Assembly: GCA_022508505.1 (NCBI GenBank) | Contig: JAFLVC010000002.1 | Span: 1-64,000, forward strand | Origin: Clostridiales bacterium | GTDB taxonomy: Bacteria > Bacillota > Clostridia > Christensenellales > Pumilibacteraceae | DNA length: 64,000 nt | Reading direction: 5' to 3' | Part shown: piece after piece, positions 3,673 to 59,632 of the stretch | How positions within the stretch are numbered: the first letter of the stretch is position 1 | Layout: each line of letters starts with the position of its first letter | Notes under the pieces: model-generated | Told to the model about the DNA's origin: nothing | Seen by the model: the letters and a program-made list of their open reading frames with translations, nothing else | Databases searched by the model: none | Made by a program: the position numbers and the translations under genes

Positions 3673-3724
3673 CCATTATAACATTTTGGTGGATACAAAG
3701 TCAAGTTTTTATGTTATATAATGG
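3673..3724. promoter_or_regulatory. Divergent LysR/MATE promoter with inverted repeat
   Basis: Reverse strand: TTGACT (3699-3704) and TATAAT (3675-3680), 18 bp apart, serve the LysR gene. Forward strand: TATAAT at 3717-3722 serves the MATE gene but has no good -35 box, as expected for an activator-dependent promoter. CCATTATAACAT (3673-3684) and ATGTTATATAATGG (3711-3724) are inverted copies differing by a two-base insertion, a likely LysR binding region that spans both -10 boxes. Confidence 0.6.
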
Positions 3725-3728
3725 TCTT

Positions 3729-5120
3729 ATGGAAGAGACGATTAAGATCAATAAACAGAACGGCAATCAAGTATTATTGGAAGGCTCGCCGTGGAAAGGA
3801 ATTTTGAAGTTTGCTCTTCCGGTATTTTTGGGGCTTTTATTGCAACAGCTCTATAATACTGCCGATACGATTATTGTGGGTAATTTCGAGAGCGAGGACG
3901 CGATGGCGGCGGTCGGCGCAACGGCAGTTCTCACGATGGTTTTTCTGGCATTTGCCAACGGGTTTTCTGCCGGTGCGGGCGTAATCGTCGCACAGCTTTT
4001 CGGCGCAAAAAAAGATGAGGAAATGCGTAAAAACGCCTGTACTTCCATTTTGCTGATGATCGGCATGGGTGTTCTCTGTACAGGCATCGCGCTTTTGATT
4101 AACAGACTCGTGCTGCAATACGTTCTCAATACGCCTACCGACATTTTGGATACGGCAATTGTATATTTTAGAGTATATGCGCTCGGATTGATATTTCAGT
4201 TTGGCTATAATATCGTGGCGGCCGTTTTGCGCGGAGTGGGGGATAGCCGTGCGACAATGTACTTCTTGCTTATTGCCGCCGTCATAAATATCGGGCTCGA
4301 TATATTGTTTGTAGGTGTTTTTCATCTCGGCGCTTTGGGCGCGGCGCTTGCCACGGATATTTCACAAGCAGGGTGTTGTATCGCCGCCGTGATTTATATG
4401 GTTAAACGTTATCCGATATTTCGCTGGAAATTTAAAGAATTGACATTCGACCCGAAACTTGCAAAAAATACGCTCAAAGTAGGATTTCCTATGGCGTTGC
4501 AACAATTTATCGTCGCTATCGGTTTGGTCTTTTTGCAAAGAGCGGTAAATAGTTATGGAAAGTTTATGACTGCCTCTTTTACGGTTGCTATGCGAATTGA
4601 ATCATACATACAGCTTCCTGCGTCCTCTTTGCAAGTTACTCAAGCCACATATACGGGGCAAAATCTCGGTGCAAGCAATATGGAGCGGGTATCAAGAGGG
4701 GCAAAACAGACTTTTTTAATGTCTGAAATGATTACGCTTGTTTTATCGGTTGTTGTATTCTTTCTTGCCGGACCAATAACGACATTATTCAGTTTGACAG
4801 ACGAGGCGACGGCATATTGCATTACACATCTTCGCACAATAGCAATACTTTTACCTATTCTTGCGGCATACTTCCCGATACTCGGATTGTTTCAAGGCGC
4901 AAACAACGGCTTTAAGGCGACGATAGTCGCATCAATGGCGCTGCTTGTCAGGGTTGTAACAACATACACGCTTTGCTATCTGCCGTTTATGGGCTACCGT
5001 ATCATTTGGTGGAACACTGCGTTTGGTTGGGGTGTCGGATGCATGATTACTTGGACTTTCTACGTTGTAGGCGGCTGGAAGAAAAAATGGTTGGACAAAT
5101 TGAAAATCGCGGAGGAATGA
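3729..5120 (+). CDS. MATE-family multidrug exporter
   Basis: This 463-residue protein has about 12 hydrophobic helices in two MatE repeats (roughly residues 15-185 and 235-410). It includes the family's opening motif LFALP-like FALPVFLGLLLQQLYNTADT and the second-repeat PMALQQ. MATE proteins export cationic drugs or metabolites using Na+ or H+ gradients. The ATG at 3729 lies exactly six bases after the -10 box and has no ribosome binding site, so the mRNA is probably leaderless; an ATG at 3711 would lie upstream of transcription. The stop is one base from the next gene's ATG, and that gene's GGAGG lies inside this reading frame, so the two are likely co-translated. Confidence 0.9.
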   Translation: MEETIKINKQNGNQVLLEGSPWKGILKFALPVFLGLLLQQLYNTADTIIVGNFESEDAMAAVGATAVLTMVFLAFANGFSAGAGVIVAQLFGAKKDEEMRKNACTSILLMIGMGVLCTGIALLINRLVLQYVLNTPTDILDTAIVYFRVYALGLIFQFGYNIVAAVLRGVGDSRATMYFLLIAAVINIGLDILFVGVFHLGALGAALATDISQAGCCIAAVIYMVKRYPIFRWKFKELTFDPKLAKNTLKVGFPMALQQFIVAIGLVFLQRAVNSYGKFMTASFTVAMRIESYIQLPASSLQVTQATYTGQNLGASNMERVSRGAKQTFLMSEMITLVLSVVVFFLAGPITTLFSLTDEATAYCITHLRTIAILLPILAAYFPILGLFQGANNGFKATIVASMALLVRVVTTYTLCYLPFMGYRIIWWNTAFGWGVGCMITWTFYVVGGWKKKWLDKLKIAEE

Positions 5121-5121
5121 A

Positions 5122-5919
5122 ATGGAGTACATTACTTTAAACAACGGAGTCCAAATGCCCATATTAGGTTATGGCACATATCAAACACCCTCGAGCATAA
5201 CGGAGCGGTGCGTGTCGGATGCGCTAAACATAGGCTATCGATCGATTGATACGGCTCAATGCTACGGCAACGAACGGGAAGTCGGTCTTGCATGCCGCAA
5301 GTCCGGAATCGCACGTTCGGAGTTGTTCATTACAACAAAGTTATGGGCTTGCCGCGGCTATCGAGATACGGCAGATTCCATCGAAAGATCTTTGCGAGAA
5401 TTGAATTTGGACTATATTGACTTGCTGCTCATTCACGAGCCTACGGGCGACGTTAACGAAATCTACCGCGCGATGGAAACTGCATACAAAGACGGAAAAA
5501 TACGCGCAATAGGTATATCGAACTTTTTGGAAGACATGTACTTGAACATTGTCAACCATTGTAAAATTGTACCTGCTATCAATCAAGTGGAAACACATGT
5601 TTTCCGCCAGCAGAGGAAGTTGCGCGAATTGGAAGCGCAAATCGGAACGAAACATGAAAGTTGGTCGCCACTTTGCTGCGGACAAAACAATATTTTTCGC
5701 AACACCACATTGTTGGAAATTGCGAGTAATCACGGTAAGTCTGTAGCGCAAGTCGTCTTACGCTTTCTCACGCAAAATGGAATTATCGTTATACCGAAGT
5801 CAACGCATATTGAACGGATGAAAGAAAACCTCGCCTCGTTGGAGTTTGACCTGCATGCAGACGAAATGCGCGAAATCGAGAGGCTTGAAATCGGAAAGAG
5901 CCTGTTCGGTTGGTGGTAA
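5122..5919 (+). CDS. Aldo/keto reductase
   Basis: This 265-residue NADPH-dependent reductase resembles the AKR5/2,5-diketogluconate reductase group. The catalytic tetrad is visible as D43, Y48, K73 and H105 (SIDTAQCY, TTKLW, LLLIHEP). The NADPH-binding C-terminus includes VIPKSTHIERMKENL. It follows the MATE gene directly with coupled translation, so exporter and reductase may act on the same toxic carbonyl compound. The segment EAQIGTKHESWSPLCCG is a somewhat diverged version of the usual cofactor-binding stretch, but the frame is intact. The substrate cannot be told. Confidence 0.88.
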   Translation: MEYITLNNGVQMPILGYGTYQTPSSITERCVSDALNIGYRSIDTAQCYGNEREVGLACRKSGIARSELFITTKLWACRGYRDTADSIERSLRELNLDYIDLLLIHEPTGDVNEIYRAMETAYKDGKIRAIGISNFLEDMYLNIVNHCKIVPAINQVETHVFRQQRKLRELEAQIGTKHESWSPLCCGQNNIFRNTTLLEIASNHGKSVAQVVLRFLTQNGIIVIPKSTHIERMKENLASLEFDLHADEMREIERLEIGKSLFGWW

Positions 5920-5938
5920 TAAAAGAAAAGGAGATGCT

Positions 5939-6472
5939 ATGAAAATTTTAGTGATTGAAAGCAGTCCGCATAAAAAAGGCTCGTCAAATCTTTTAGCGGA
6001 GAACTTTGTGCGCGGCGCAAGGGAAGCGGGGAACTCCGTGACCGTTTTTGATGTCGCAAGAGCAAACATTCACCCATGCCTTGCGTGTGAAGTTTGCGGA
6101 ATGAACGGTCCTTGTACGCAAAAGGACGACATGGAAAAACTGAAAGAACTTATTTTGCAGTCCGATATGGTCGTGTTCGTTACGCCGCTTTACTACTTTG
6201 GAATGTCCGCACAGCTAAAAATTGCGATTGACCGCTGTTACAGTTTTAATAGCAAGCTTCATGCCAAAGATTTAAAAACAGCGCTTATTGCCGCTTCGTG
6301 GGACAGCAACGAAGTAAAGATGCGTCCGCTTGTCGAACACTATCAGATGATATGTCACTATTTAGGCTTTAAAGATAAAGGCATGATAATTGGTTTGGGT
6401 TGCGGCACTCCTGCCATGACGCAGAAAACTGTCTATCCGCAAAGGGCCTACGAATTCGGCAAATCAATATAG
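5939..6472 (+). CDS. Flavodoxin-like NAD(P)H-dependent FMN reductase
   Basis: This 177-residue flavodoxin-fold protein begins with MKILVIESSPHKKGSS, whose S-S-P-x-x-x-G-S-S loop binds FMN phosphate. A four-Cys segment (C47, C50, C53, C59) matches the CxxC region of anaerobe iron-sulfur flavoproteins. VFVTPLYYFGMSAQLK is the second flavin-binding stretch. The ATG at 5939 has AAGGAG before it; an in-frame upstream ATG overlaps the preceding gene and is unlikely. It is in line with the aldo/keto reductase, suggesting a small redox operon. Whether a 4Fe-4S cluster is really present is inference. Confidence 0.82.
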   Translation: MKILVIESSPHKKGSSNLLAENFVRGAREAGNSVTVFDVARANIHPCLACEVCGMNGPCTQKDDMEKLKELILQSDMVVFVTPLYYFGMSAQLKIAIDRCYSFNSKLHAKDLKTALIAASWDSNEVKMRPLVEHYQMICHYLGFKDKGMIIGLGCGTPAMTQKTVYPQRAYEFGKSI

Positions 6473-6511
6473 TCAATGTTTACATAATGAGACAGCAAAA
6501 TTAGTAAATGT

Positions 6512-6540
6512 TTGACTTAGTGCGTATTATTTCTTATAAT
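6512..6540 (+). promoter_or_regulatory. Consensus promoter of the acetyltransferase gene (leaderless)
   Basis: TTGACT (6512-6517) and TATAAT (6535-6540) are 17 bp apart. Six bases later comes the ATG at 6547, which has no ribosome binding site. The expected transcription start coincides with the A of the ATG. Confidence 0.7.
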
Positions 6541-6546
6541 ATATGT

Positions 6547-7113
6547 ATGGATATTAAGCAATTTTTGGAAATTATGAATCGCGGCGATTATGTTGTCGCA
6601 GGCTCCGAAGCACACCTTGTTATGCACGCATTGTCTGACGAGGCTCGGAAAGTTACTGCAGAGCTGAACAACGCCTATCATACGGACGAGGTAATCCGTT
6701 CGTTTTTTTCAAAGCTCATCGGAAAGGAAGTAGACAAAGGCTTTGTACTGTTCCCGCCGTTCTACACGGACTGCGGAAAGAATATTACGGTCGGAAAAAA
6801 CGTGTTTATAAACGAGGGCTGTTGCTTTCAGGATCAGGGCGGAATTACAATCGGCGACAATTGCTTAATCGGTCAGCAGGTCGTTATAGCTACGCTCAAT
6901 CACGATTTATGTCCCGATAAGCGTGCCAATATGCAGCCCGCGCCCGTCTTAATCGGCAAAAACGTTTGGGTGGGCGCACACGCAACAATATTGCCGGGCG
7001 TGACAATAGGCGACAACGCGGTAGTTGCGGCGGGTGCGGTTGTAACAAAAGACGTGCCGGCTAATACCGTTGTGGCAGGCGTTCCGGCAAAAGTCATAAA
7101 GACGATAGAATAA
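6547..7113 (+). CDS. Maltose/galactoside-type O-acetyltransferase
   Basis: This 188-residue left-handed beta-helix acyltransferase carries hexapeptide repeats from about residue 78 to 180 ([52 protein letters not shown]). H119 in the ATLNHD motif is the conserved catalytic His. The N-terminal helical region (residues 1-60) is of the Mac type. It moves acetyl from acetyl-CoA to a sugar hydroxyl. The start is the ATG six bases after the -10 box, so this begins its own probably leaderless transcript within the redox gene run. The following aldo/keto reductase starts 11 bp after its stop. Confidence 0.88.
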
Positions 7114-7124
7114 ACGGAGTAGTT

Positions 7125-8225
7125 ATGGAATACAGAAAGTTACCCAAAGGCAACGAAAAAATAGGCGTTCTCGGCATCGGCTTGGGCGGAATACAAGACG
7201 CGCCGAGTGACGAGATAGAGGCTGTTGTCCGCAAGGCGATAGATAACGGCATAAATTACTTTGACGCTTGCGGCGGCGGAGCGAGTATTTACGAGCCGTT
7301 TGGCAAGGCGATTGCCGGACAGAGAGACAAGGTGTTCTTTCAGCTTCATTTCGGCGCTGTCTATAATGAGAAAGGCGAGTACGGTTGGTCGAGGGATTTA
7401 GACAGAATTAAAGAGACCTTTGCTTGGGAGCTTAAACTGCTCGGCACCGATTACATAGACTTTGGATTTTTGCATTGCATAGACGAGGACGAGGACTTTG
7501 ACGAGATAAAAAGTAACGGCATATTCGATTATGTGTTGAGCCTTAAAAACAGCGGGGTTACAAGGCACGTCGGCTTTTCGTCACACACTCCGTCGGTGGC
7601 GGAAAGGGTGCTGGACGAAGGCGTGTTCGATATGATGATGTTCAGCATAAATCCCGCGTACGATTTGGAACAGGGCGACGAGTACGGCAAAGGCTCCTCC
7701 GGCGAGCGTGCAAAGCTATTTCGCCGTTGTCAGTCGGAAGGAGTGGGTATTTCCGTAATGAAGCCTTTTCACGGCGGGCAGCTTTTATCTAGCAGTACTT
7801 CGCCGTTCAAAAAGGAGCTTACAAAGGAGCAGTGTATTCAGTACTGTCTCGACCGTCCCGCCGTGCTCACGGTGCTTCCGGGTGTGCGAAGCGTAAAAGA
7901 CCTCGACGAACTCTTAAAATATCTTACCGCAAGCGCCGAGCAAAAAGATTATTCGGTAATAGGCGAGTTTACGCCCGAGTCGGCGATAGGGCACTGCGTA
8001 TATTGCAACCACTGTCAGCCGTGCCCCATGGGGATAGACATCGGACTAATTAATAAGTATTACGACCTATCGCTTGCGGGCGACAAAATGGCGCACAACC
8101 ATTATGATAAAATTTCGGTCAAAGCGGACGCCTGTGTCGCTTGCGGACATTGCGAAAAAAGATGTCCGTTCAAAGTAAAGCAAATTAAGCGCATGAAAGA
8201 AATAGCTACTTATTTCGGAAAGTAA
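7125..8225 (+). CDS. Aldo/keto reductase with C-terminal 2[4Fe-4S] ferredoxin domain
   Basis: This 366-residue protein has an aldo/keto reductase barrel (about residues 1-270). It ends in a ferredoxin-like tail with two clusters: C291-x2-C294-x2-C297-x2-C300-P and C337-x2-C340-x2-C343-x3-C347-P. This fused family is common in gut Clostridia and in anaerobic archaea. The clusters suggest electron supply from ferredoxin rather than only NADPH. In the barrel the usual tetrad is altered: the first region reads YFDACGGGASIYE and the His position is FLHC. A ribosome binding site (CGGAG) precedes the ATG. It lies in the redox gene run and is followed by a secreted lipoprotein. Confidence 0.88.
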   Translation: MEYRKLPKGNEKIGVLGIGLGGIQDAPSDEIEAVVRKAIDNGINYFDACGGGASIYEPFGKAIAGQRDKVFFQLHFGAVYNEKGEYGWSRDLDRIKETFAWELKLLGTDYIDFGFLHCIDEDEDFDEIKSNGIFDYVLSLKNSGVTRHVGFSSHTPSVAERVLDEGVFDMMMFSINPAYDLEQGDEYGKGSSGERAKLFRRCQSEGVGISVMKPFHGGQLLSSSTSPFKKELTKEQCIQYCLDRPAVLTVLPGVRSVKDLDELLKYLTASAEQKDYSVIGEFTPESAIGHCVYCNHCQPCPMGIDIGLINKYYDLSLAGDKMAHNHYDKISVKADACVACGHCEKRCPFKVKQIKRMKEIATYFGK

Positions 8226-8243
8226 CTTATTGAGGACTTAAAA

Positions 8244-9833: not shown

Positions 9834-9852
9834 ATTAAAGGAGATATAAATC

Positions 9853-11025: not shown

Positions 11026-11044
11026 TCAAACAGGAGTAATAAAT

Positions 11045-42343: not shown

Positions 42344-42850
42344 CTAAAAGAACTTTAACAGCGCGCAGCCTACAATACAGCCGGTGTAGGTTGCGACGAG
42401 CGCGACGGGGATTGCGTAGCGCAGGCGGCGCACGCTCGACTGCGAAAAGTATATCGTCGCTACGTAGAATACCGTTTCGCTCGAGCCGTATATGACGGAC
42501 GCGCACCGCCCGATATAGCTGTCCGTGCCGTAGTTTTTGTATATGCCGTCGAGAATGGCGAGCGAGCCTGCGCCCGACACGGGACGAAGAAACATGAGCT
42601 CCGCCACTTCTTTGGGTAAGCCCACTTTAGCGAGTACGGGCTCGACGGCGTGCGCGAGGTATGCCGACGCGCCCGACACGCGGAACGCCTCGACGGCGAC
42701 CATGATTGCGAGAAGGTAGGGAAACACGTTTATCGTCAGATCGACCGCCTGCCGCGCGCCGCCTATGAACCCGCTGTACGGCTCGCGCCGTCTTATGAAC
42801 GACGCGGCGAGAACGACGAGGAACAGTATTGGAATTATGTACGCGCTCAC
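42344..42850 (-). CDS. spmB: Spore maturation protein SpmB
   Basis: This 168-residue membrane protein with four or five helices is recognised by the SpmB pattern RPVSGAGSLAILDGIYKNYG and GSSETVFYVATIYF. With SpmA it acts in the developing spore to dehydrate the core, conferring heat resistance. It starts with GTG overlapping the spmA stop (GTGA), as in other Clostridia, so the two are translated together. Confidence 0.92.
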   Translation of the reverse strand: MSAYIIPILFLVVLAASFIRRREPYSGFIGGARQAVDLTINVFPYLLAIMVAVEAFRVSGASAYLAHAVEPVLAKVGLPKEVAELMFLRPVSGAGSLAILDGIYKNYGTDSYIGRCASVIYGSSETVFYVATIYFSQSSVRRLRYAIPVALVATYTGCIVGCALLKFF

Positions 42851-43512
42851 AGTTTGTTCCCTCCGCGCATCGCCGCTTTCCCACGCTTTTCATGTCTGAT
42901 TTTGCTTTTGCGTTTTTGTTTTGCGCGCGGTGCGCTTGTCCGCTCCCGTTTTTTTCGGTCGAAAATTTTAGAACACAGCTTGACTCCGATTATTCCGATT
43001 ACAGTGGACAGGACGGTCGCAATAAGCGAGGGGAAAAGGAAGTCGGCGGGGTTTGCCGAGCCTGCCGTCGCGCGCATGCCGATGACCGTCGTCGGCAGGA
43101 TTTGAAGGCTTGTAGCGGATATTACGGTCAGCATTATCATGTCGGTGGACGCCCGACCGCTCCCGTCGTCCATGCGCTTTATGGCGTTTATCGCCATGGG
43201 TGTTGCGGCGTTGCCGAGCCCCAACAGGTTTGCCGAAACGTTCATCGTTATATATTTTCTGGTCTCGGCGTCGCACGAGGGGAACATGCGCGATATTACG
43301 GGGCGGAGAAGGCGCTCCAAGCCTCGCGACAGCCCGAGCTTTTCGATGAGCGCGAAAAAGCCCAGCCAAAACGCGTAAAGCGCCATGAGATTGAGCGACA
43401 GCTCCACCGCGCTGTGCGCGCCTGTTATCATGGAGTTTACCGCCGCGGAGGGGTCTGTGAATATCATAAGTCCAAGCGCGGAAGCGAGCATTAACAGCCA
43501 TATGATTGCCAT
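42847..43512 (-). CDS. spmA: Spore maturation protein SpmA
   Basis: This 221-residue membrane protein carries the SpmA/nucleoside-recognition-like pattern NVSANLLGLGNAATPMAINA and TLISATSLQ-type MLTVISATSLQILPTTVIG. The Lys/Arg-rich tail (about 180-221) is longer than usual. The ATG at 43512 has no ribosome binding site but lies six bases after a sigma-E-like -10 box, so I prefer it to an in-frame upstream ATG at 43572 that lies beyond the promoter. It forms an operon with spmB. Confidence 0.9.
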   Translation of the reverse strand: MAIIWLLMLASALGLMIFTDPSAAVNSMITGAHSAVELSLNLMALYAFWLGFFALIEKLGLSRGLERLLRPVISRMFPSCDAETRKYITMNVSANLLGLGNAATPMAINAIKRMDDGSGRASTDMIMLTVISATSLQILPTTVIGMRATAGSANPADFLFPSLIATVLSTVIGIIGVKLCSKIFDRKKRERTSAPRAKQKRKSKIRHEKRGKAAMRGGNKL

Positions 43513-43518: not shown

Positions 43519-43551
43519 AATATATGCCGTAGCTTTGTGAATAATGTCGAA
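43519..43551 (-). promoter_or_regulatory. Sigma-E-like promoter of spmA (leaderless)
   Basis: CATATATT (43519-43526) and CATTATT (43540-43546), 13 bp apart, resemble sigma-E -10 (CATACAAT) and -35 (KMATATT) elements. The -10 box ends six bases before the spmA ATG. A Spo0A-box core TGTCGAA at 43545-43551 touches the -35 element. Sigma-E control of spmA is known in Bacillus subtilis. Confidence 0.5.
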
Positions 43552-45084: not shown

Positions 45085-45366
45085 TTATTTCGTTCCCGAG
45101 GGCAACTCGCCGCGGTAGATCATGTTGAGATATTCGCGCGCGTAGTTGATGATAAAAGACGACGTCTTGCAGTAGGTGAGCATGCTTTCGTTTTCGGCGA
45201 GCGCCTTTTCGAGATAGGCGGATTGCGCCTTGTAATCGTCAAGCCTGTCGTTTACTGCCGAAAGCCGCACGAGGTTGATGATGAGCGCGACGATGAGTAG
45301 CACCAAAAGCGTGGCGAGCGACGCGACTACAACTTTTATTATCGTTTTCTTGTTTGCTTCTGTCAT
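45085..45366 (-). CDS. DivIC/FtsB-like septum protein
   Basis: This 93-residue single-pass protein has a short cytoplasmic N-terminus and a membrane helix (about 10-32). A coiled coil (LSAVNDRLDDYKAQSAYLEKALAE) and a C-terminal YAREYLNMIYRGELP segment follow, typical of DivIC/FtsB (septum formation initiator). It bridges division proteins at the septum. The promoter is a perfect consensus and the ATG lies six bases after the -10 box without a ribosome binding site. Confidence 0.82.
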   Translation of the reverse strand: MTEANKKTIIKVVVASLATLLVLLIVALIINLVRLSAVNDRLDDYKAQSAYLEKALAENESMLTYCKTSSFIINYAREYLNMIYRGELPSGTK

Positions 45367-45372: not shown

Positions 45373-45401
45373 ATTATACCACCGACGGAAACTCTTGTCA
45401 A
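45373..45401 (-). promoter_or_regulatory. Perfect-consensus promoter of divIC-like gene (leaderless)
   Basis: TTGACA (45396-45401) and TATAAT (45373-45378) with a 17-bp spacer on the reverse strand. Six bases (ACCGCC) separate the -10 box from the ATG at 45366. Confidence 0.8.
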
Positions 45402-48016: not shown

Positions 48017-48196
48017 ATGACTGACAAGGTGCTTACTTGCAGGGATTGCGGAAAGGAGTTTACTTTTACCGCGGGGGAACAGGAGTTCTACGCGGAAAAG
48101 GGTTTCGAGCACGAGCCGACGCGCTGCCCCGAATGCCGCAAGATAAACAAGGCTAAGCGTGCCGCCGCGCGCAACAACCGCCGCAACGATCAATAA
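48017..48196 (+). CDS. Small zinc-ribbon protein
   Basis: This 59-residue protein has one zinc ribbon: CRDCGKEF (residues 8-15) and CPECRK near residue 40, with an Arg/Lys/Asn-rich tail. It is the widespread single zinc-ribbon (zf-trcl) family seen in Clostridia, probably nucleic-acid binding. TTGACA (47898-47903)/TAAAAT (47921-47926) and AAGGAG precede it. Confidence 0.82.
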   Translation: MTDKVLTCRDCGKEFTFTAGEQEFYAEKGFEHEPTRCPECRKINKAKRAAARNNRRNDQ

Positions 48197-48255
48197 TTTG
48201 CTCACACAATCGTCAAAAAGCGTCCGACATACAATCGGGCGTTTTTGTTTTTGCA

Positions 48256-48284
48256 TTGACTATTATCGCGTTTTATTGTATAAT
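48256..48284 (+). promoter_or_regulatory. Consensus promoter of the histidine kinase gene (leaderless)
   Basis: TTGACT (48256-48261) and TATAAT (48279-48284), spacer 17. Six bases separate the -10 box from the ATG at 48291. Confidence 0.75.
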
Positions 48285-48290
48285 ACGGGT

Positions 48291-49808
48291 ATGGAAGAAA
48301 GAACTCCGCCGCTCGACATCGCGGCAGACAAAAAGACGGACGACAAGCCCGCCGTCAAAAAACGCCGCAATTGGTTCGGCTCGCTCAAGATAAAGACGAG
48401 CTTTACCTTTATTGCGTTTGCGGCGGCGATCCTCGTCATACTGTGGGCGATATTTTTGATATTCATTTTCGGAGTCTACGGGCGAATGCTCGAAAACGAT
48501 TTGGCGGCGGTGGGCGACGCCGTCGCGGCGCGAGTGCCGTCCGCTATCGAGGACGTGGACTCCCTTCAAGCGACGCTCAGCGACCACGCACAGCGCGACT
48601 CCGTTTCCATAACCGTTTTCACCGTCGGAGAGGACGGCATTCCCAACGCCCCGATAATCAATATCGACACGTTCGGCAACAGCATAGACACCGAAAAGCC
48701 GGAGTCGTTTGACGCCATCATTGCGGACATCGACTTCGACGACGTGTTCGTCAAGCGCGGCGGCGTCGGCCGAGTCAGTACCGAAATGGGCGACTACATG
48801 TGCTACGGCGCAAAGCGAAACGTCAGTTTGAACGGCGAGCACACCGAGCTCTACATTCTCGTCGCCGAGCCCGACGACCTGTTCAACTCGCAGACCATGA
48901 TACTTATCTATGCGCTCGTCGTGATTACGGCGGTCGTGCTTGTGGGCGCTATCATAAGCTCGATATTCATGTCGGACTATCAGATACGGCTACTCCGCGG
49001 GTTTTCGCGGAACGCCAAAAGGCTTGCCGAGGGCGACTTCGACGCCGAGTTCTCGGGTGGCGGCTACGAGGAATACGACAACCTCGCGAGTGCGCTCAAC
49101 GCCGCAAAGGACAGTATCAAAAAAACGGAAGCGCTGCAGCGCGACATGATTGCAAACGTTTCGCACGACATACGCACGCCGCTCACCATGATACGCGCGT
49201 ATGCCGAAATGCTGCGCGACATGCCGCTCGATCCCGAAAAGCGCGAAAGGACAGCCGAAATCATCATAGCGGAAAGCGACAGGCTGGACGCTCTTACCGC
49301 AGACATCTTGAACCTGTCAAAATTGCAGGCGGGCGTCGTCGAGTTCAAGTACGAGCCGCTCTACATAGGCGAGCTCGCTTACGCCACGCTCGTGGAGTTC
49401 GAAATCTTCCGTACGCGCGACGGCGTCAAGTTCGAAACGGACATAGACGACAACGCTCTTGCGGTGTGCGACAGCTCGCGCATATTTCAGGTATTTTACA
49501 ATCTCATCATCAACGCGATCAATTACAGCGGCGACGACAAGACGGTCATCGTCCGCGTCAAGAATAAAGAAAACGCCGTGCGCGTCGAGGTCGCCGATCA
49601 CGGCAAGGGCATCGAGCCGGACGAGCTAGACAACGTTTGGGACAGGTACTACCGTTCGGCGCACACCAAGAGAAGCGCCGTCGGTTCGGGACTCGGTCTC
49701 AGTATTTGCAAGAGCATTCTCGAAGCGCACAAAGCCGAGTACGGCGTTACGTCCGAGCTCGGCAAGGGGACTACGTTCTGGTTTGAATTGGCGACAAAGA
49801 ATGATTAG
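48291..49808 (+). CDS. Orphan sensor histidine kinase
   Basis: This 505-residue kinase has a first membrane helix at about 38-62 and an extracellular sensor domain to about 205. A second helix (about 210-232) and a HAMP domain follow. The HisKA has phospho-acceptor H292 (NVSHDIRTPL), and the HATPase has NLIINAINYS, DHGKGIEPDEL and GSGLGLSICKS. No response regulator gene adjoins it; Spo0A is about 2 kb away on the other strand, so feeding the sporulation pathway is possible but unproven. Translation probably starts on a leaderless message. Confidence 0.9.
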   Translation: MEERTPPLDIAADKKTDDKPAVKKRRNWFGSLKIKTSFTFIAFAAAILVILWAIFLIFIFGVYGRMLENDLAAVGDAVAARVPSAIEDVDSLQATLSDHAQRDSVSITVFTVGEDGIPNAPIINIDTFGNSIDTEKPESFDAIIADIDFDDVFVKRGGVGRVSTEMGDYMCYGAKRNVSLNGEHTELYILVAEPDDLFNSQTMILIYALVVITAVVLVGAIISSIFMSDYQIRLLRGFSRNAKRLAEGDFDAEFSGGGYEEYDNLASALNAAKDSIKKTEALQRDMIANVSHDIRTPLTMIRAYAEMLRDMPLDPEKRERTAEIIIAESDRLDALTADILNLSKLQAGVVEFKYEPLYIGELAYATLVEFEIFRTRDGVKFETDIDDNALAVCDSSRIFQVFYNLIINAINYSGDDKTVIVRVKNKENAVRVEVADHGKGIEPDELDNVWDRYYRSAHTKRSAVGSGLGLSICKSILEAHKAEYGVTSELGKGTTFWFELATKND

Positions 49809-49957: not shown

Positions 49958-50254
49958 TTATTTCTTATCTATTGTCTTAGACTCGGGGTGCCGCTTGACG
50001 ACATTCCGAGTCGCCCAGTATGCGATGAGATATCCGCCGAATAGGCAGGCGAAGATGTACGGCGCGATAACCGTGCCCGTAAGTATTATGTATGCGACGA
50101 GTGCGCCGCCGACGGTAAGCGCTACGAGTGAGTCCAAAACGATTGTAACCGGTTTTAGATCGGTTCTTTTTGCGAGCGCGCTCGCTGCCATATACAGCAC
50201 GCGCGTGGCGACGCCAAGCCCGAGCGAAAACAAAAAGGCGTACAGCTCGGTCAT
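49958..50254 (-). CDS. yabQ: YabQ-like spore cortex membrane protein
   Basis: This 98-residue membrane protein has three helices (about 5-27, 38-60, 65-85) and starts with an ATG overlapping the yabP stop (ATGA). The position after yabP and the helix pattern fit YabQ, needed for cortex formation, although sequence identity is weak and it is shorter than the Bacillus protein. Confidence 0.7.
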   Translation of the reverse strand: MTELYAFLFSLGLGVATRVLYMAASALAKRTDLKPVTIVLDSLVALTVGGALVAYIILTGTVIAPYIFACLFGGYLIAYWATRNVVKRHPESKTIDKK

Positions 50255-50535
50255 TTGAAAATGCGCTTTAAGAGCGACTGCTTAGCCGCCGTGTACTTTA
50301 TGCCGTCGATGTTGCCGCTTAAAGCGAGGTCGCCGCTCGCTTCGTCGAAGCGCTCGATCTTGAGCTCGCTGCCGGATATGACGAGCCGTCCCAAGCACGA
50401 CACGAGGATTATCTCCGTCGCGTTGGAGCTTTCCACTCGTACTACGCCCGTGAGCGTCGCTTTTTTGCGGTCGGTCACGGCGATAGAGTGCGATGTGAAC
50501 TTGGTCTTAAATACTTCCGCGTTGTTTTCTTTCAT
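50251..50535 (-). CDS. yabP: Sporulation protein YabP
   Basis: This 94-residue beta-rich protein has the YabP pattern: SIAVTDRKKATLTGVVRVES, SCLGRLVISGSELKIERF, SGDLALSGNIDGIKY, and a terminal LLKRIFK. In Bacillus it acts in the mother cell at the spore cortex under sigma-E. The ATG at 50535 has no ribosome binding site and lies six bases after a sigma-E-like -10 box. The longer in-frame extension upstream lies beyond the promoter. Confidence 0.88.
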   Translation of the reverse strand: MKENNAEVFKTKFTSHSIAVTDRKKATLTGVVRVESSNATEIILVSCLGRLVISGSELKIERFDEASGDLALSGNIDGIKYTAAKQSLLKRIFK

Positions 50536-50541: not shown

Positions 50542-50570
50542 AAAGTATGCGGCGCTTCCGCCTAATATGT
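50542..50570 (-). promoter_or_regulatory. Sigma-E-like promoter of yabP (leaderless)
   Basis: ACATATT (50564-50570) and CATACTTT (50542-50549), 14 bp apart, match sigma-E -35 (KMATATT) and -10 (CATACAAT) consensus well. The -10 element ends six bases before the ATG. Confidence 0.65.
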
Positions 50571-53402: not shown

Positions 53403-55484
53403 ATGGTTAAGGTTACGGAGTTGTTCGGCTCGATGGTGTTCAACGAGCAGGTCATGCGTGAGCGCTTGCCTAAAGAGGTGTTTAAGGCGCTTCAGTGCAC
53501 CATCAAGACGGGGTCGTATCTTCCGTCCGACGTCGCGGACGTCGTGGCGAGCGCGATGAAGGACTGGGCAATCGAAAAGGGCGCGACGCACTACACGCAT
53601 TGGTTCCAGCCCATGACCGGCATAACCGCCGAAAAGCACGACAGCTTCATAACCCCCGACGACGGCGGCTCGGTAATAATGAAGTTTTCGGGCAAGGAGC
53701 TCATCAAGGGCGAGCCCGACGCGTCGAGCTTTCCGTCGGGCGGACTTCGCTCCACCTTCGAGGCGCGCGGCTACACGGCGTGGGATCCGACGAGCTATGC
53801 CTTTGTAAAAGGCACCGTGCTTTACATACCGACGGCGTTCATATCGTATTCGGGGCAGGTGCTCGACAAGAAAACGCCGCTACTCCGCTCCATGGACAGC
53901 GTGAGCAAAGCGGCGGTTCGCGTGCTTAAGCTGTTCGGCAAAAACCCGACGAGCGTACTGCCGTCCGTCGGTCCCGAACAGGAATACTTTTTGATTCCCA
54001 TCGAGCTTTATAAAAAGCGTCCCGACCTCATCATCACAGGCCGCACGCTGTTCGGCGCGAAACCGCCCAAGGGACAGGAGCTCGACGACCACTATTTCGG
54101 AAAAATCAAGAGCAAGGTGCTCGAATACATGGAGGACCTCGACGCGGAGCTGTGGAAGCTCGGCATTCACGCAAAGACGCGGCACAACGAGGTCGCGCCC
54201 GCTCAACACGAGCTTGCGCCCATCTATTCGACGGTCAATATCGCAACAGACCACAACCAGCTTACCATGGCGGTCATGCGCGAGCTTGCCGTAAAGCACG
54301 GGCTCGTGTGCCTGTTGCACGAAAAACCGTTTGCAGGCGTCAACGGCTCGGGCAAGCACAACAATTGGTCGCTGACCACCTCGGACGGTGAAAACCTCCT
54401 GGATCCCGGCAAGGACCTCAAAAACAACCTTCAGTTCATGCTGTTTTTGACAGCCGTCATAAAGGCGGTTGACGAGCACCAGGACCTTTTGCGCCTCTCC
54501 GTCGCGACGGCGGGCAACGACCACCGTCTCGGCGCGAACGAGGCTCCGCCCGCCATTATTTCCATGTTCCTCGGCGACGAGATTACCGACCTTTTCGAGA
54601 CCATATCGTCGGGCAAGGAATACAAAAACCGCGTCGGCGCGAAGCTGTCGACGGGTGTGGAGTCGGTGCCCGTCATTTACGAGGACACGACGGACAGAAA
54701 CCGCACGTCGCCGTTCGCGTTTACGGGCAACAAGTTCGAGTTCCGTTCGCTCGGCTCGTCGCTCAATATCGCGTGCCCCAACATCATGATAAACGCCGCC
54801 GTCGCCGACGCGCTCAATGCGTACGCCGACAAGCTCGAAAAGGCTAAGGACTTCAAGAAAGCGGCGCTCGACCTCATAAAAAAGGAATATATCGCGCACA
54901 AGCGCATCGTGTTCAACGGCGATAACTACGCCGACGCTTGGAAGGCGGAAGCGGCGCGTCGCGGCCTCCTCAACCTCAAGGGAACGCCCGAAGCGCTTTC
55001 GTACTACGACACCAAGGAAAACGTCGAGCTGTTTGAAAAGCTCAAGATCTACACGGCGGAAGAGGTCAAGGCGAGAAAGGACATTCTCCTCGAAAACTAC
55101 TGCAAGATAATCAACATCGAAGCGCTTACGATGTGCGAGATAGCTGTCAAGCAGATACTGCCCGCCGCCGCGAGGTTTACCACCGAGCTCGCCGACAACA
55201 TCGCAAAGCTGACCGCGCTCGGCGTGGATGCAAGGGCGCAACGCGAAGTGCTCGACATATCCGCGGCGCTCATAGGCGACGCGTACGAGGCTGAGCAGCG
55301 GCTTTCGGACGCTCAGCTCGCAATCAAGAACGAGACAGACAGTCAAAGCGCGGCGAACTTCTGCCACGACACGGTGTTCTCGGCAATGCAGGAACTCCGC
55401 ACCTACTGCGACAGGCTGGAAACGCTCGTCGCAAAGGATTTGTGGCCGTTCCCGTCGTACGGCGACCTCTTGCTGTACGTTTAA
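53403..55484 (+). CDS. glnN: Type III glutamine synthetase
   Basis: This 693-residue GSIII enzyme has WFQPMTG and EKHDSF near the start, [53 protein letters not shown] and [16 protein letters not shown]. It makes glutamine from glutamate, ammonia and ATP; type III is common in Bacteroidetes and Clostridia. AAGGAG precedes the ATG. A TTGACA (53313) lies upstream. No other glutamine synthetase is visible in the window. Confidence 0.95.
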
Positions 55485-55508
55485 TATCGCGCATTTTCGG
55501 CAAATAGC

Positions 55509-55537
55509 TTGACAGCCCGCGCCGCGCGCTGTATAAT
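55509..55537 (+). promoter_or_regulatory. Perfect-consensus promoter (leaderless)
   Basis: TTGACA (55509-55514) and TATAAT (55532-55537), spacer 17, six bases before the ATG at 55544. Confidence 0.8.
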
Positions 55538-55543
55538 ATCGTT

Positions 55544-56059
55544 ATGTTTTTGAGTGCATTGGAACCGTATGTAGTAGTCATACTCATAGTAATAGTCGCG
55601 TTGCAGTACGCTTTTGCGCTGTTCTGCCTGCTCAAGCTCGCGTACCTCGATATAACAAAGCGCGAGTACGTGCTGTGGAACCTGTTCATTCTCCTCGTGT
55701 TCTTTATCGGCGATATCGCATTCCTTGTGTATTATTACAAGAAAGGCAAGGAAAAGACAATCCCGCCCTACGTCCCGCCCGTGGAAGGCGACGACGAAAA
55801 AGACGTCGAAAAATCGGAGAGCTACGCGGAAGGCGAGGCGAACGCGGAAGCGGCGGAAACCGAAACGGTCGATACGCTGACGAAGCCCGAGGAAAAAACT
55901 GAAATCGCTGAGAATGATCAAGAGGCTAATGAGCCGATAGCGGAAGAAAAGAAAGAAGAAACGGACAGCACAGCCGACGCTACGCTTTCGGAACAGGACA
56001 AGCCCGAGAAGAAAGCTCCTGCAAAGAAAAAGCCGACGGGCAAAAAGAAAACCCAATAA
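55544..56059 (+). CDS. Two-helix membrane protein with charged cytoplasmic tail
   Basis: This 171-residue protein has two membrane helices (about 10-32 and 45-65), the second preceded by KREYVLWNLFILLVF, resembling PLDc-N-like domains. A 100-residue Glu/Lys/Ala/Pro-rich tail ends in a Lys-rich cluster. No catalytic motif is visible. The ATG has no ribosome binding site and lies six bases after the -10 box. Confidence 0.7.
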   Translation: MFLSALEPYVVVILIVIVALQYAFALFCLLKLAYLDITKREYVLWNLFILLVFFIGDIAFLVYYYKKGKEKTIPPYVPPVEGDDEKDVEKSESYAEGEANAEAAETETVDTLTKPEEKTEIAENDQEANEPIAEEKKEETDSTADATLSEQDKPEKKAPAKKKPTGKKKTQ

Positions 56060-56077
56060 TCATTGTAACAAAAACAG

Positions 56078-56105
56078 AAAAGCTCTCGATTATTTGAGAG
56101 CTTTT
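56078..56105 (+). terminator. Rho-independent terminator
   Basis: AAAAGCTCTC/GAGAGCTTTT with a GATTATTT loop. Confidence 0.75.
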
Positions 56106-56267
56106 AATTATGTATGAGTGAGCGCATCAATCGAGTTGTGCTAATGTCAACAGTGCCGGCAATTTCCTATATCAAGCTCCACTTAATAAAGGGAGCCTGA
56201 TAGCGTCGGTCGACAAGCGAAAACTCATTACATAGGCGCGGTTAATAGCTTTGCCTTTAAATGAAAT
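56106..56267. repeat. Short spacer with repeat remnant
   Basis: A GGGAGCCTGATAG box at about 56190-56203 is the only recognisable element; it belongs to the dispersed repeat families. No gene. Confidence 0.5.
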
Positions 56268-56669
56268 TTATATCTCAAACTCAATATTTTTGATTTCGGT
56301 TATTCTTATTTCAATTAAGTATTTACCGATATTACCTTGCAAAGAGATTGCTTGTGCAAATGGCGAATAAAAATCCAAGTTAACTGCAAAGTGATTTTTT
56401 AGCAACAAGTCTTTTATATCTGCCAAATCAACTTCTGCCCAACGATTTTTGTGGCATTTATAAAATGAACAATGCTCAAAAAGTCTATTAATGTCAAAAT
56501 CGTCAACATAAATGTTCATTTTGCAAGGCTTGGATAGGTAGCTCTCTTTTCCTGTATCGTCTAAAATATAGACACCATTACAAAATGAAAATGTTAAACC
56601 ATTTTTATTAATGATAATATCATTTATAAATGTGTCGTGTAAACCGTATTCGATATATCTATCAAACAT
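56268..56669 (-). CDS. AT-rich gene of unknown function
   Basis: This 133-residue soluble protein has mixed alpha/beta composition and ends in a strongly beta-prone KYLIEIRITEIKNIEFEI. No family is recognised; it resembles small immunity-type or DUF proteins often carried on mobile DNA. AATGGAG precedes the ATG. Its base composition is far more AT-rich than dnaN next to it, suggesting recent acquisition. Confidence 0.65.
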   Translation of the reverse strand: MFDRYIEYGLHDTFINDIIINKNGLTFSFCNGVYILDDTGKESYLSKPCKMNIYVDDFDINRLFEHCSFYKCHKNRWAEVDLADIKDLLLKNHFAVNLDFYSPFAQAISLQGNIGKYLIEIRITEIKNIEFEI

Positions 56670-56786
56670 ACAAACTCCATTAGATTACTGTTTATTGTAT
56701 AATTATTATAGCAAATCGCAATCAAAAAAGCAAACAGGCGCGACTTTAAGCCGCGCCGTTGTCGTACTATTAGGTTTTGTGCGAAA

Positions 56787-57890
56787 TTACACGCTTCTTA
56801 CGGGAAGGACGAGGTAGATGTATTCGTCCACGCTGCCGGCGGGGGATACGACGCAAGCGGAAGTCGCGTTCGTCAGGTTGAGAACAATCGTGTCGCAGTT
56901 CATGCAGTGCAGGAACTCGGTAAAGTACCGCGCGTTGAACGATATGGAAATGTCCGCACCGTCCGTTTTTACGGGCAGGTTTTCCTCGACGTTGCCTACG
57001 TCGCTTCTCGACTTTACCGTCATGTTGGTTTCGGTTATGTCGAAGCGGACGAGGTAGTTGTTCTTTTCGGTACGCGCCATGAGCACCGCGCGGTCGATTG
57101 CGTCCTCGAACAACGCTTTGGGGATATATACGTGCGTGTCGAAGTGCTGAGGCACGATCTGGCGGTAGTTGACGAAGTCGCCGTCGATAAGCCGCGTCGT
57201 AATGGTCGTCGCGTCAAGCCGCACCATGAGGTAGTTCTTGTGCATATAGAACATTACTACGTCGTCGTTGTCGGGTACGAGCTTGGATATTTCCATGATG
57301 GCGCGTACAGGCACGACGATACTCGTTTCGGCGGTGGTCGCAATCAGCGGCTTTACGCACTTTGCGAGCCGATATCCGTCGAGCGCGACTGCCACGACGT
57401 CCGATTCGTTTATCTCGAACAGCACGCCCTTAAGGGTGGGGTGCGAGTCGTCGGTGCATACGGAAAACGCTACCTTGTTGACGAGGTCGCGGAACTCCGA
57501 GTTTTTCATCTCGAAGTGCTGCGTGTCCTCGACGCGGTTTATCTCGGGGAACTGGTCGGCGGAATAGCAGCCGAACTCGCCCTCGCTCCTTTCGTAGTCT
57601 ATTTTGAGGCGGGAGCCGTTGGCGGAAAGCACTATGTTTTGAGAGGTCAGCTTTTTGACGAAGTCGCCGAACAGCTTGCCCGGCACAACCGTTTCGCCCG
57701 ACTCGATGACGTCGGCGCGTATCATGTGCTCTATGGAAAGCTCGAGATCGGTCGCCGAAAGGGTGAGCGTGCCGTCCTCGGCGGTCATTCTGATTCCCTC
57801 GAGAACGGGGTTTGTCGAGCGCGCGGATACCGCCTTGATGACGCGTCCTACCGCTTCGCAAAGATCGTTGCCGTTGCATTCGATTTTCAT
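56787..57890 (-). CDS. dnaN: DNA polymerase III beta sliding clamp
   Basis: This 367-residue clamp has three repeated domains, with TAEDGTLTLSATDLELSI, NKVAFSVCTDDSHPTLKGVLFE and the C-terminal YLVLPVR. It encircles DNA and tethers the polymerase. The start at 57890 has GAGGTG before it. The promoter is TTGACT (57943-57948)/TACAAT (57920-57925), 17 bp apart. dnaA and recF, the usual neighbours near the origin, are absent; instead a divergent metal-type repressor lies upstream. Confidence 0.95.
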   Translation of the reverse strand: MKIECNGNDLCEAVGRVIKAVSARSTNPVLEGIRMTAEDGTLTLSATDLELSIEHMIRADVIESGETVVPGKLFGDFVKKLTSQNIVLSANGSRLKIDYERSEGEFGCYSADQFPEINRVEDTQHFEMKNSEFRDLVNKVAFSVCTDDSHPTLKGVLFEINESDVVAVALDGYRLAKCVKPLIATTAETSIVVPVRAIMEISKLVPDNDDVVMFYMHKNYLMVRLDATTITTRLIDGDFVNYRQIVPQHFDTHVYIPKALFEDAIDRAVLMARTEKNNYLVRFDITETNMTVKSRSDVGNVEENLPVKTDGADISISFNARYFTEFLHCMNCDTIVLNLTNATSACVVSPAGSVDEYIYLVLPVRSV

Positions 57891-57958
57891 AAATATTTCA
57901 CCTCGCATGTGTTTGTAATATTGTACCACACTCGACAAAAAAAGTCAATATAATTGGC

Positions 57959-57973
57959 AAAGTAAAATACTTT
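57959..57973. promoter_or_regulatory. Palindromic operator candidate between dnaN and the DtxR-type gene
   Basis: AAAGTA-AAA-TACTTT is a perfect dyad. It overlaps the -35 box TTTACA (57971-57976) of the repressor gene (-10 TAGAAT at 57995-58000) and lies 10 bp upstream of the dnaN -35 box. It is a plausible self-repression site. Confidence 0.5.
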
Positions 57974-58029
57974 ACAACCCACCCTCAAAAATGATAGAAT
58001 AGTAAAAATTATACTTACAAGGAGAGAAT

Positions 58030-58404
58030 ATGTTGCGCGACCACGAATCCGAAGAGATGTACCTCGAGACGATACTCGTATTGAAGGGCGAGAAGGTTGC
58101 CGTGCGCTCTATCGACGTAGCGGAACGGTTGGGCTATGCCAAATCGAGCGTTTCGCGCGGCGTCAATCTTCTTCAAGACCGCGGATATATCGTCATTCGC
58201 GAGGACGGGTTTATAGACTTTACCGATGCCGGTGCGCAAAAGGCGAACACAATCTACGAGCGGCACAACGTCCTTACCGAAATGCTCATCGAGCTCGGCG
58301 CGAGCAAGGAGCTCGCCGAAACCAACGCTTGCAGGATAGAGCACGTGATTGACGACGAGGTGTTCGACCTCATCAAAAACCACATCGAGGCAAAGTCGAA
58401 ATAA
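58030..58404 (+). CDS. DtxR/MntR-family metal-dependent repressor
   Basis: This 124-residue protein has an N-terminal winged helix (SIDVAERLGYAKSSVSRGVNLLQDRGYI) and a helical metal-binding/dimerisation domain with E and H residues (YERHNVLTEMLIELG, CRIEHVIDDEVF). It lacks the third SH3-like domain, as in MntR. It would sense Mn or Fe in the cytoplasm. AAGGAGAG precedes the ATG. No metal transporter is adjacent; a Cys-rich small protein is convergent. Confidence 0.85.
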   Translation: MLRDHESEEMYLETILVLKGEKVAVRSIDVAERLGYAKSSVSRGVNLLQDRGYIVIREDGFIDFTDAGAQKANTIYERHNVLTEMLIELGASKELAETNACRIEHVIDDEVFDLIKNHIEAKSK

Positions 58405-58416
58405 CGACTTAAACAA

Positions 58417-58452
58417 AAAGAGAACGACTGCCGATAAGCAGTCGTTCTCTTT
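58417..58452. terminator. Bidirectional terminator
   Basis: AAGAGAACGACTGC/GCAGTCGTTCTCTT with flanking A and T runs, between the convergent repressor and Cys-rich genes. Confidence 0.8.
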
Positions 58453-58480
58453 CTTTGTTTTAGCGGGAGAGAAAGTTCAC

Positions 58481-58780
58481 TCAGCCGTTGTTGTTGCAGC
58501 CGCCGTTATTGTAACCGCCGTTGTTGTTGCAGCCGCCGCTACTTCCGCACATGCTTCCCCATATGTTCTTGAGCAGGCATTGGCAGGGGCTCTGCGCACG
58601 GTTGCACTCGCAGCTGCGGCACTTCCGACAGCAATTGCACCCGCTGTTGCAGCTACTGCCGCTGTTGCAGTTGCAGTTAGAGCTGTTGTCGTTGTTGCCG
58701 TTCTGATTGTCGCACTCGCGCATGACGGTACATCTCACGCAGCACGACCTGTTGCAGTTGTTGCAGTTATTAAAAAACAT
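58481..58780 (-). CDS. Cys/Asn/Gly-rich small protein
   Basis: This 99-residue protein has about a quarter Cys and many Asn, in clusters such as CNNCNRSCCVRC, CNCNSGSSCNSGCNCC and GGCNNNGGYNN. CGGAGG precedes the ATG. The composition fits a spore-coat (CotY/Z-like in richness only) or metal-binding metallothionein-like protein; I cannot choose. The longer upstream extension in frame has no ribosome binding site and overlaps the divergent alkylation-repair gene. The position opposite a metal repressor is suggestive. Confidence 0.7.
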   Translation of the reverse strand: MFFNNCNNCNRSCCVRCTVMRECDNQNGNNDNSSNCNCNSGSSCNSGCNCCRKCRSCECNRAQSPCQCLLKNIWGSMCGSSGGCNNNGGYNNGGCNNNG

Positions 58781-58873
58781 AAAACACCTCCGATTGTTTA
58801 TGTAAAGTTTGCTGTGAAAAAGGCGGTGTCTTAATTTCAGTCTATGCGACAGTGCGGCGGTGTGTGAAAACGC

Positions 58874-58903
58874 TTGATTTTTTACAAGCGGAAATGTTAT
58901 TCT
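58874..58903 (+). promoter_or_regulatory. Promoter of the AlkD-like gene (leaderless)
   Basis: TTGATT (58874-58879) and TATTCT (58898-58903), 18 bp apart. The -10 box ends six bases before the ATG at 58910, which has no ribosome binding site. Confidence 0.5.
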
Positions 58904-58909
58904 TGAATC

Positions 58910-59632
58910 ATGTACGAAACTTACGACGAGTGTCGCGCGAGGATATTCGGCGCGACGGAAGAAGAGAAGGTGGGCGGCGGCAACGCGGAGCGGCATAACG
59001 CCATAATAAACAGCGACAGCGGAACGCTCGGCGTTCGCGTGCCTGTCATAAAGCGGCTTGCAAAAGCGGTGCCCATTGCGTGTCGCGACGCCGTCCTTTC
59101 GGGGTTTTTCGGGAGCGGCGACACCGTGTTCGAAACGGTGCTGTTTGCGGGAGTGTTGGCGGCGCGAAAGGGCGACTACCGAAAAACGCGCGAGTACATG
59201 AAGCGGTTGATCCCGATGTTCTCGTCATGGGCGCATCCCGATACGATAGTCCCGTGCTTGAGATGGACGGACGAGGCGGCCTTCCGCACCGATTTTTCGT
59301 ACCTTTTGGACTGCGAGGGACAGTACGAGGTGCGGACGTACATAATTTATTTGATGACGCGGTGTATCGAGAGCGATTTGGATTTTGCGCTCGACACGCT
59401 TATAAATAAAGTGAAATACGGGCAATATTATGTTGACATGGCGGCGGCCTGGTGCGTCGCCGAGGCGCTCGTCAAAAACTACGAGGGCGCGCTGCCTACG
59501 ATAGAAAAGAGCGTATTGCCGCCCTTCGTTCACAACAAGGCGATACAGAAGGCGCGGGAGTCGTTTAGGCTGACGGACGAGAGGAAGGCGCAGCTTAGCT
59601 CGCTGCGCGCTAAGATAAAAGATAAGAAATAA
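58910..59632 (+). CDS. AlkD-like DNA alkylation repair protein
   Basis: This 240-residue all-helical HEAT-repeat protein has GVRVPVIKRLAK, FETVLFAGVL, the SWAHPDT motif and YYVDMAAAWCVAEALVKN, the pattern of the AlkD/DNA-7-methylguanine glycosylase family. It would remove alkylated bases. The last residues (RAKIKDKK) are encoded by a dispersed AGATAAAAGATAAGAAATAA repeat that supplies the stop codon. Confidence 0.85.
   Translation: MYETYDECRARIFGATEEEKVGGGNAERHNAIINSDSGTLGVRVPVIKRLAKAVPIACRDAVLSGFFGSGDTVFETVLFAGVLAARKGDYRKTREYMKRLIPMFSSWAHPDTIVPCLRWTDEAAFRTDFSYLLDCEGQYEVRTYIIYLMTRCIESDLDFALDTLINKVKYGQYYVDMAAAWCVAEALVKNYEGALPTIEKSVLPPFVHNKAIQKARESFRLTDERKAQLSSLRAKIKDKK

Follow-up and report, generated by a model that had tools for sequence, protein, structure and literature searches.

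An uncultured clostridia-like lineage with predicted leaderless genes whose -10 box lies six bases before the start codon

The first 64,000 nucleotides (forward strand) of contig JAFLVC010000002.1 from a Clostridiales bacterium of the family Pumilibacteraceae (NCBI GenBank assembly GCA_022508505.1), hereafter the window, contain eight genes in which a -10-like promoter element ends exactly six bases upstream of the ATG. An earlier note on this DNA had read such genes as leaderless, with messages that start at the ATG itself and lack a ribosome binding site. This reading is supported by sequence tests of three kinds: (i) a peak of -10 boxes at 6-7 nucleotides (nt) from the start codon; (ii) a purine peak downstream of the -10 box in leadered promoters; (iii) the promoter geometry kept by the orthologs of several genes. 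The genes are most probably true leaderless genes whose messages begin at the start codon, a reading to which a probability of about 0.9 is given.

In the proposed mechanism, RNA polymerase would bind a near-consensus promoter, either TTGACA-17-TATAAT or a sigma-E-type CATATT-14-CATANNNT, whose -10 box stops six bases (in some genes seven) short of the start codon. Transcription starting 7-8 bases past the -10 box would make the A of the start codon (often G in relatives) the first base of the mRNA, and the ribosome, presumably as an assembled 70S particle, would then initiate on the 5'-terminal AUG or GUG without Shine-Dalgarno (SD) contact. Binding of 70S ribosomes to leaderless messages is treated in a review (PMC9031893).

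Enrichment and distance to the start codon

Across the genome as a whole (1.89 Mb) there are 56 occurrences of the pattern TATAATN6ATG, compared with 7 of the reversed pattern and 9 at spacing 12; the reversed pattern is too lenient a control, and spacing 12 is the fairer one. For an analysis of the distance, the window was combined with 20 other stretches into a 464-kb sample, in which 326 genes were called. In this sample, exact TATAAT boxes preceding an in-frame ATG near gene starts number 18 at 6 nt, 4 at 7 nt, none at 8-14 nt and 7 at 15-18 nt, and out-of-frame ATG codons at 6-7 nt are absent (0). The peak at six bases, on which the earlier note had made its claim depend, is thus found at 6-7 nt, and exact seven-base cases also occur in the genome. 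GTG starts are little enriched in this genome; by subtraction there are 21 (77-56) at 6 nt and 12 (21-9) at 12 nt.

A TATAAT-like box (at most one mismatch) at 6-7 nt precedes 28 genes, 21 of which possess a -35 box (at most two mismatches to TTGACA) at exactly 17 bp, and one more at 16 bp. With a promoter score of 9/12 box bases, 25 genes are placed at 6-7 nt against 11 over the eleven distances 8-18 nt. The strong promoters (n=115) are divided into 18 lying 6-7 nt from an in-frame ATG, 60 with a called start elsewhere within 300 nt, and 37 that are distant, geneless or intragenic.

Share of genes

The sample was partly selected. Eleven of the 20 stretches (L018-L028) were picked with match positions already known and hold 13 exact sites (6.5 expected), and the window itself is rich in them, with 5 compared to the 1.9 expected at the genome mean. 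The unselected set, nine stretches on a regular grid along contig 1 (180 kb), holds 6 exact sites for 5.3 expected. On this grid 5/121 genes (about 4%) and 3/29 strong promoters are leaderless, and the exact TATAAT-ATG distances are 6 nt in two cases, 7 nt in three and 8-14 nt in none. A first estimate from the whole sample, 25/326 genes (7-8%) and 18/78 strong promoters, was therefore corrected; about 4% of called genes is the fairer value. The 6-7 nt peak is independent of the choice of stretches, since the grid shows it and the whole-genome count is sample-free. The gene caller gave 0.70 genes/kb and missed some genes, MATE being an example.

Transcription start and translation signals

The position of the transcription start (+1) was analysed in 60 leadered promoters, separate from the leaderless set, with a start codon 15-300 nt away. 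Purines reach 73% at each of positions 7 and 8 after the -10 box, compared with 43-62% at positions 2-6 and 52-65% at positions 9-14; a peak of purines at this place usually marks +1. Since this peak lies 7-8 nt after the -10 box, +1 would fall on the A of the ATG when the -10 distance is six or seven, the exact 5' end being a prediction.

At the 18 strong promoters lying 6-7 nt from an in-frame ATG, no SD-type site precedes any of the listed in-frame starts. Genes led by an SD site stand beside the leaderless ones, so that the two classes coexist as the earlier note had described. The usual 3' end of 16S rRNA, GGATCACCTCCTTT, is present at one site, and the anti-SD is intact. A loss of SD translation is not suggested, because the anti-SD is intact and an S1-domain protein is present. 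Loss of ribosomal protein S1 was considered as a cause and is unsupported: the rpsA profile matches an S1-domain protein in the genome (E 1e-73, below cut-off). The same profile matches in 13/13 genomes and passes the cut-off in none of them, and it passes in 2/14 control genomes. The match (G000:C21:125050-126072) lies within a 703-aa open frame, possibly a fusion with another enzyme of the kind known from clostridia.

The eight sites of the window

Each start was inspected together with 70 upstream bases, and all eight -10-like sites were found in place (Table 1). The set is less uniform than had been described: an exact TATAAT followed by six bases and ATG is present in 5/8 cases (the MATE, acetyltransferase, DivIC-like, histidine kinase and two-helix genes), whereas the box of the AlkD-like gene is degenerate and those of spmA and yabP are sigma-E-like. 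The near-perfect -35 boxes at 17 bp, TTGACA or TTGACT, are confirmed for the acetyltransferase, DivIC-like, kinase and two-helix genes. The MATE and AlkD-like genes do show the six-base distance, but each is weak when taken alone, the former having no -35 match and the latter a degenerate -10 box and a weak -35 box (TTGATT at 18 bp).

The MATE product (3729-5120) carries a MatE domain, and its open reading frame (ORF) has a second possible opening ATG at 3711. The leaderless start of the histidine kinase lies 132 nt inside its longest ORF, which opens with GTG at 48159. Some products of leaderless genes match their families from the first residues, e.g., fumarase alpha (residues 1-271 to profile positions 1-278) and GatC (5-97 to 1-93).

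Table 1. Promoter elements and predicted leaderless genes of the window
Feature	Position	Strand	Remark
MATE -10 TATAAT	3717..3722	+	six bases 5' of ATG 3729; no -35 match; weak case
Acetyltransferase -35 TTGACT	6512..6517	+	17 bp 5' of -10
Acetyltransferase -10 TATAAT	6535..6540	+	six bases 5' of ATG 6547
Hexapeptide acetyltransferase, predicted leaderless at 6547	6547..7113	+	Pfam Hexapep
spmA-like gene, predicted leaderless	42847..43512	-	Pfam Gate match below curated cut-off
spmA sigma-E-like -10 CATATATT	43519..43526	-	six bases 5' of ATG 43512
spmA sigma-E-like -35 CATTAT	43541..43546	-	
DivIC-like small protein, predicted leaderless	45085..45366	-	no Pfam match
DivIC-like -10 TATAAT	45373..45378	-	six bases 5' of ATG 45366
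DivIC-like -35 TTGACA	45396..45401	-	
Histidine kinase -35 TTGACT	48256..48261	+	
Histidine kinase -10 TATAAT	48279..48284	+	six bases 5' of ATG 48291
Sensor histidine kinase, predicted leaderless	48291..49808	+	HisKA, HATPase_c
yabP sporulation gene, predicted leaderless	50251..50535	-	Pfam YabP above cut-off
yabP sigma-E-like -10 CATACTTT	50542..50549	-	six bases 5' of ATG 50535
yabP sigma-E-like -35 CATATT	50564..50569	-	
Two-helix -35 TTGACA	55509..55514	+	
Two-helix -10 TATAAT	55532..55537	+	six bases 5' of ATG 55544
Two-helix membrane protein, predicted leaderless	55544..56059	+	conserved in same-genus orthologs
AlkD-like degenerate -10 TATTCT	58898..58903	+	six bases 5' of ATG 58910
AlkD-like gene, possibly leaderless here and in one near relative	58910..59632	+	no Pfam match

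Conservation in orthologs

The geometry is kept upstream of the two-helix gene, where TTGAC[AT]-17-TATAAT-6-ATG is present in 12/12 same-genus orthologs read, with differing spacer sequences; one further partial match (G691) stands outside this count. The tilS gene, found in 78/81 relatives, was read in the 30 best-scoring loci, own genome included. Among 18 other same-genus species, 15 keep TTGA[CT][AT]-17/18-TATA[AC]T-6/7 (the exceptions are L125, L126 and L128), and in 11 of these keepers the start codon is GTG. The geometry is also kept in 6/11 more distant tilS loci. The kinase was read in one ortholog, L140, which carries TTGCAA-17-TATAAT-6-ATG.

Other genes of the class are less constant. 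In 14 DivIC orthologs the -10 box lies 6 nt from the start in four, 8 nt in one and 9-10 nt in nine, the last value being read by eye; of the four, one lacks a -35 match and in another the start is uncertain. The AlkD ortholog L161 has TTGACT-17-TATAAT-6-ATG, and the remaining 12 of the 13 aligned relatives lack the promoter. Out of 15 other acetyltransferase loci aligned, one (L162) is clearly leaderless, one (L168) is ambiguous and 13 are not leaderless; several of these 13, judged by eye, have an SD-like run of purines ahead of the same ATG. In the other relatives of both genes the promoter is mostly absent, an SD-like run is often seen, and the same ATG is used in the closer relatives. The nrdG2 gene, leaderless here, was rejected as a conserved member of the class, given that only 2/80 relatives provide even a weak match; these 80 best relatives are mostly gut or rumen metagenome-assembled genomes of Lachnospiraceae, Oscillospiraceae and other Clostridia, the nearest being labelled "uncultured Clostridia bacterium".

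Conservation of the leaderless genes is accordingly gene-dependent and not universal, and the mode of initiation at one and the same start codon can vary among the orthologs of a gene. The earlier note had named conserved downstream starts with ribosome binding sites as a reason to abandon its reading; no such later start is indicated by the orthologs.

Spread across genus, family and order

The occurrence of TATAAT followed by ATG or GTG was compared across genomes at spacings 6 and 12, using hand-entered tables. Spacing 6 exceeds spacing 12 in 20/20 genomes of the genus (1425 vs 746, own genome included), in 47/47 genomes from other genera of the family (3125 vs 1676) and in 35/44 genomes from other families of the order (2152 vs 1643). 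This amounts to an excess of about 1.9-fold for both the genus and the family, against 1.3-fold for the remaining families of the order; the own genome has the largest excess within the genus (77 vs 21).

The comparison with spacing 12 was repeated for ATG only in 12 genomes, namely the own genome and 11 chosen by eye, mostly strong against the reversed pattern. Clear enrichment is seen in the own genome (56/9), G523 (43/8), G646 (39/8), G390 (36/12) and G302 (25/8), and an excess of about two-fold in G222 (38/19) and G351 (29/16). Of these, G523 and G646 come from a different family within the order, and G222 comes from a different order within the class; all three have more sites at spacing 6 than at spacing 12. 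The gene samples of the congener G695 (122 genes) and of G302 (59 genes in 120 kb, poorly called) are too small for a clear histogram.

Probable members under a sporulation sigma factor

The sigma-E promoter consensus consists of a -35 box and a CATANNNT -10 box, 14 bp apart. Both spmA and yabP have a -35-like hexamer 14 bp from the -10 box, and on this consensus the boxes are classed as sigma-E-like. The sigma-E-type leaderless class comprises these two genes. Six genes of the sample carry a sigma-E-like upstream site: it lies at 6 nt in yabP and in spmA, and at 28-97 nt in the remaining four. The yabP product belongs to a sporulation family (Pfam YabP, above cut-off), while the name spmA was given in the earlier note and its sole family match is Gate, below cut-off.

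From 46 genomes with a yabP match, 19 same-genus orthologs were read. A CATA leaving six bases before the start is kept in 17/19, and an SD site within 20 nt occurs in 0/19; in L159, the single ortholog read from beyond the genus, AAGGAG is found instead. Two spmA orthologs were read, with CATATATT and CATATACT five bases 5' of the ATG. The yabP gene is a likely leaderless member under a sporulation sigma factor, its dependence on sigma-E being predicted from the promoter. A broader idea, offered tentatively and rather doubtful at present, is that leaderless initiation forms a selected, gene-specific class across sigma factors: members under sigma-A (two-helix, tilS) and sigma-E (yabP, spmA) would be held at about six bases, their translation perhaps being co-tuned when the state of the ribosomes shifts, e.g., during sporulation.

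Alternative explanations

Several results weigh against the leaderless reading or narrow it. The reversed-pattern control flatters the effect, the genus-wide excess being 1.9-fold when spacing 12 is used. Little or no excess over spacing 12 is seen in G364 (43/33), G413 (33/27), G041 (25/21), G605 (14/14) and G071 (30/30), and in G695 (160 kb, 122 genes) the peak of exact TATAAT boxes is weak, with 3 at 6 nt, 2 at 4, 2 at 8 and 1 at 9. Within the own sample, the looser promoter score assigns 11 genes to distances of 8-18 nt, including four at 11 nt. The purine share after the -10 box is as high at position 1 (72%) as at positions 7-8. The 9-10 nt of most DivIC orthologs would correspond to a leader of 1-3 nt, making this a near-leaderless set; AlkD and acetyltransferase are leaderless in few relatives, and nrdG2 is preceded by an SD-like run in L030, a relative with 75% identity.

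The strongest competitor is a very short leader, in which +1 would lie 1-5 nt upstream of the codon, still without an SD site. It has a modest chance of being right, roughly that of a minority case, and draws on the seven-base cases in the genome, the 9-10 nt found in 9/14 DivIC orthologs and the 5 nt in the two spmA orthologs; the exact six bases in 12/12 two-helix and 17/19 yabP orthologs and the purine peak at positions 7-8 speak against it. That the pattern arises by chance, TATAAT and ATG being common and found when sought, is very improbable. Many genomes of the phylum list do lie near the reversed-pattern control by eye, and 3/8 window sites lack an exact TATAAT, but chance does not account for the 56 vs 9 sites in the genome, the in-frame restriction at 6-7 nt, the -35 box at 17 bp in 21/28 genes or the spacing kept in orthologs. 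Chance is refuted for the class as a whole and is still a possible explanation of the MATE site.

It is also hardly to be expected that the true starts lie further downstream behind ordinary ribosome binding sites, with an incidental ATG at six bases. The acetyltransferase ortholog L168, having both an in-frame six-base ATG and an SD-preceded ATG 12 nt later, fits such an arrangement. However, the strong leaderless promoters lack SD-type sites before the listed starts (0/18), the start codon is the same in most orthologs of the AlkD-like and acetyltransferase genes, even in those led by an SD site, and tilS has GTG in place of ATG at the same position. Equally remote is the idea that the boxes are the site of a special regulator or a phage-like element instead of a general promoter class: no support for it turned up, though no specific search was made, and the boxes are of sigma-70-type consensus and precede unrelated genes (gatC, tilS, fumarase, pyrophosphatase, nrdG2).

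Other loci

In window positions 1-6500, the genome-trained codon-usage caller gave one plus-strand gene ending before 7200 (6508-7113), despite MATE and other long ORFs, and codon usage in this part may be unusual. A GlmU-like gene of 368 aa (L028:17984-19087, own contig C23) matches the C-terminal half of GlmU with residues 129-356, its first 128 residues being unlike the nucleotidyltransferase half. A gene of 588 aa (L021:14395-16158, own contig C19) has PrmC at 345-584, preceded by about 340 residues with no listed match; its supposed -10 box (TATATT, with a poor -35) is probably spurious. A gene for a divergent protein resembling release factor 1 (L019:14880-15875, own contig C12), which at 122 bits stays far below the prfA cut-off of 423, carries TTGACA-17-TATAAT-6-ATG.

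Significance

The genes would represent a conserved leaderless class in an uncultured clostridia-like lineage, while published maps of transcription start sites in cultured clostridia show few. If the reading is right, annotation can readily misplace some start codons in these genomes; the histidine kinase, when opened by the longest-ORF rule, would begin 132 nt too early (window 48159-48291). Orthologs that are leaderless or SD-led at the same codon provide natural sets in which the cost and benefit of each mode are testable, and with yabP leaderless expression would come to include a gene under a sporulation sigma factor.

Comparison with known systems

The earlier note had called leaderless messages untypical of Firmicutes. 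This is partly right but too strong. In a 2011 survey (Zheng et al., PMC3160421), leaderless genes were reported in 56/209 Firmicutes genomes, with a mean of 4.2% and a maximum of 16.6%. As here, the signal of those genes is a TANNNT box some 12 bp ahead of the start, and the grid value of about 4% is near the survey mean. The Firmicutes cases of that survey are mainly Lactobacillales and Mycoplasma, the string "Clostridi" being absent from its main text, and they are mostly of low GC content, whereas the window has 52% GC.

In streptococci, 8.6-9% of mRNAs are leaderless, and 81% of those of S. pyogenes are also leaderless in S. agalactiae (PMC6431027). They likewise coexist with SD-led genes and are conserved; in contrast, they were mapped by differential RNA sequencing (dRNA-seq), whereas the present genes are known from sequence alone, and here, unlike in the streptococci of that report, a sporulation sigma factor seems to be included in the class. 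Shares of 2-3% have been given for solventogenic clostridia (PMC9045289) and 15 potential leaderless genes for C. difficile (PMC7438776). These are related bacteria with the same kind of signal; the 3/29 strong promoters on the grid, and 18/78 in the partly selected sample, are small numbers obtained by other counting, so that the comparison is suggestive only. In Mycobacterium and Deinococcus, leaderless genes make up over 20%, and as much as 60%, of the total (review PMC9031893), likewise with the start codon at or near the 5' end and with GUG usable in some species, but at a share far above the approximately 4% found here.

The kind of gene is therefore known, and its share in this genome is not exceptional, being ordinary for Firmicutes with leaderless genes. 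No report on leaderless genes in this group came up in an open-licence library. The features that appear to be new are the lineage, the conserved gene-specific class within it and the likely member under a sporulation sigma factor.

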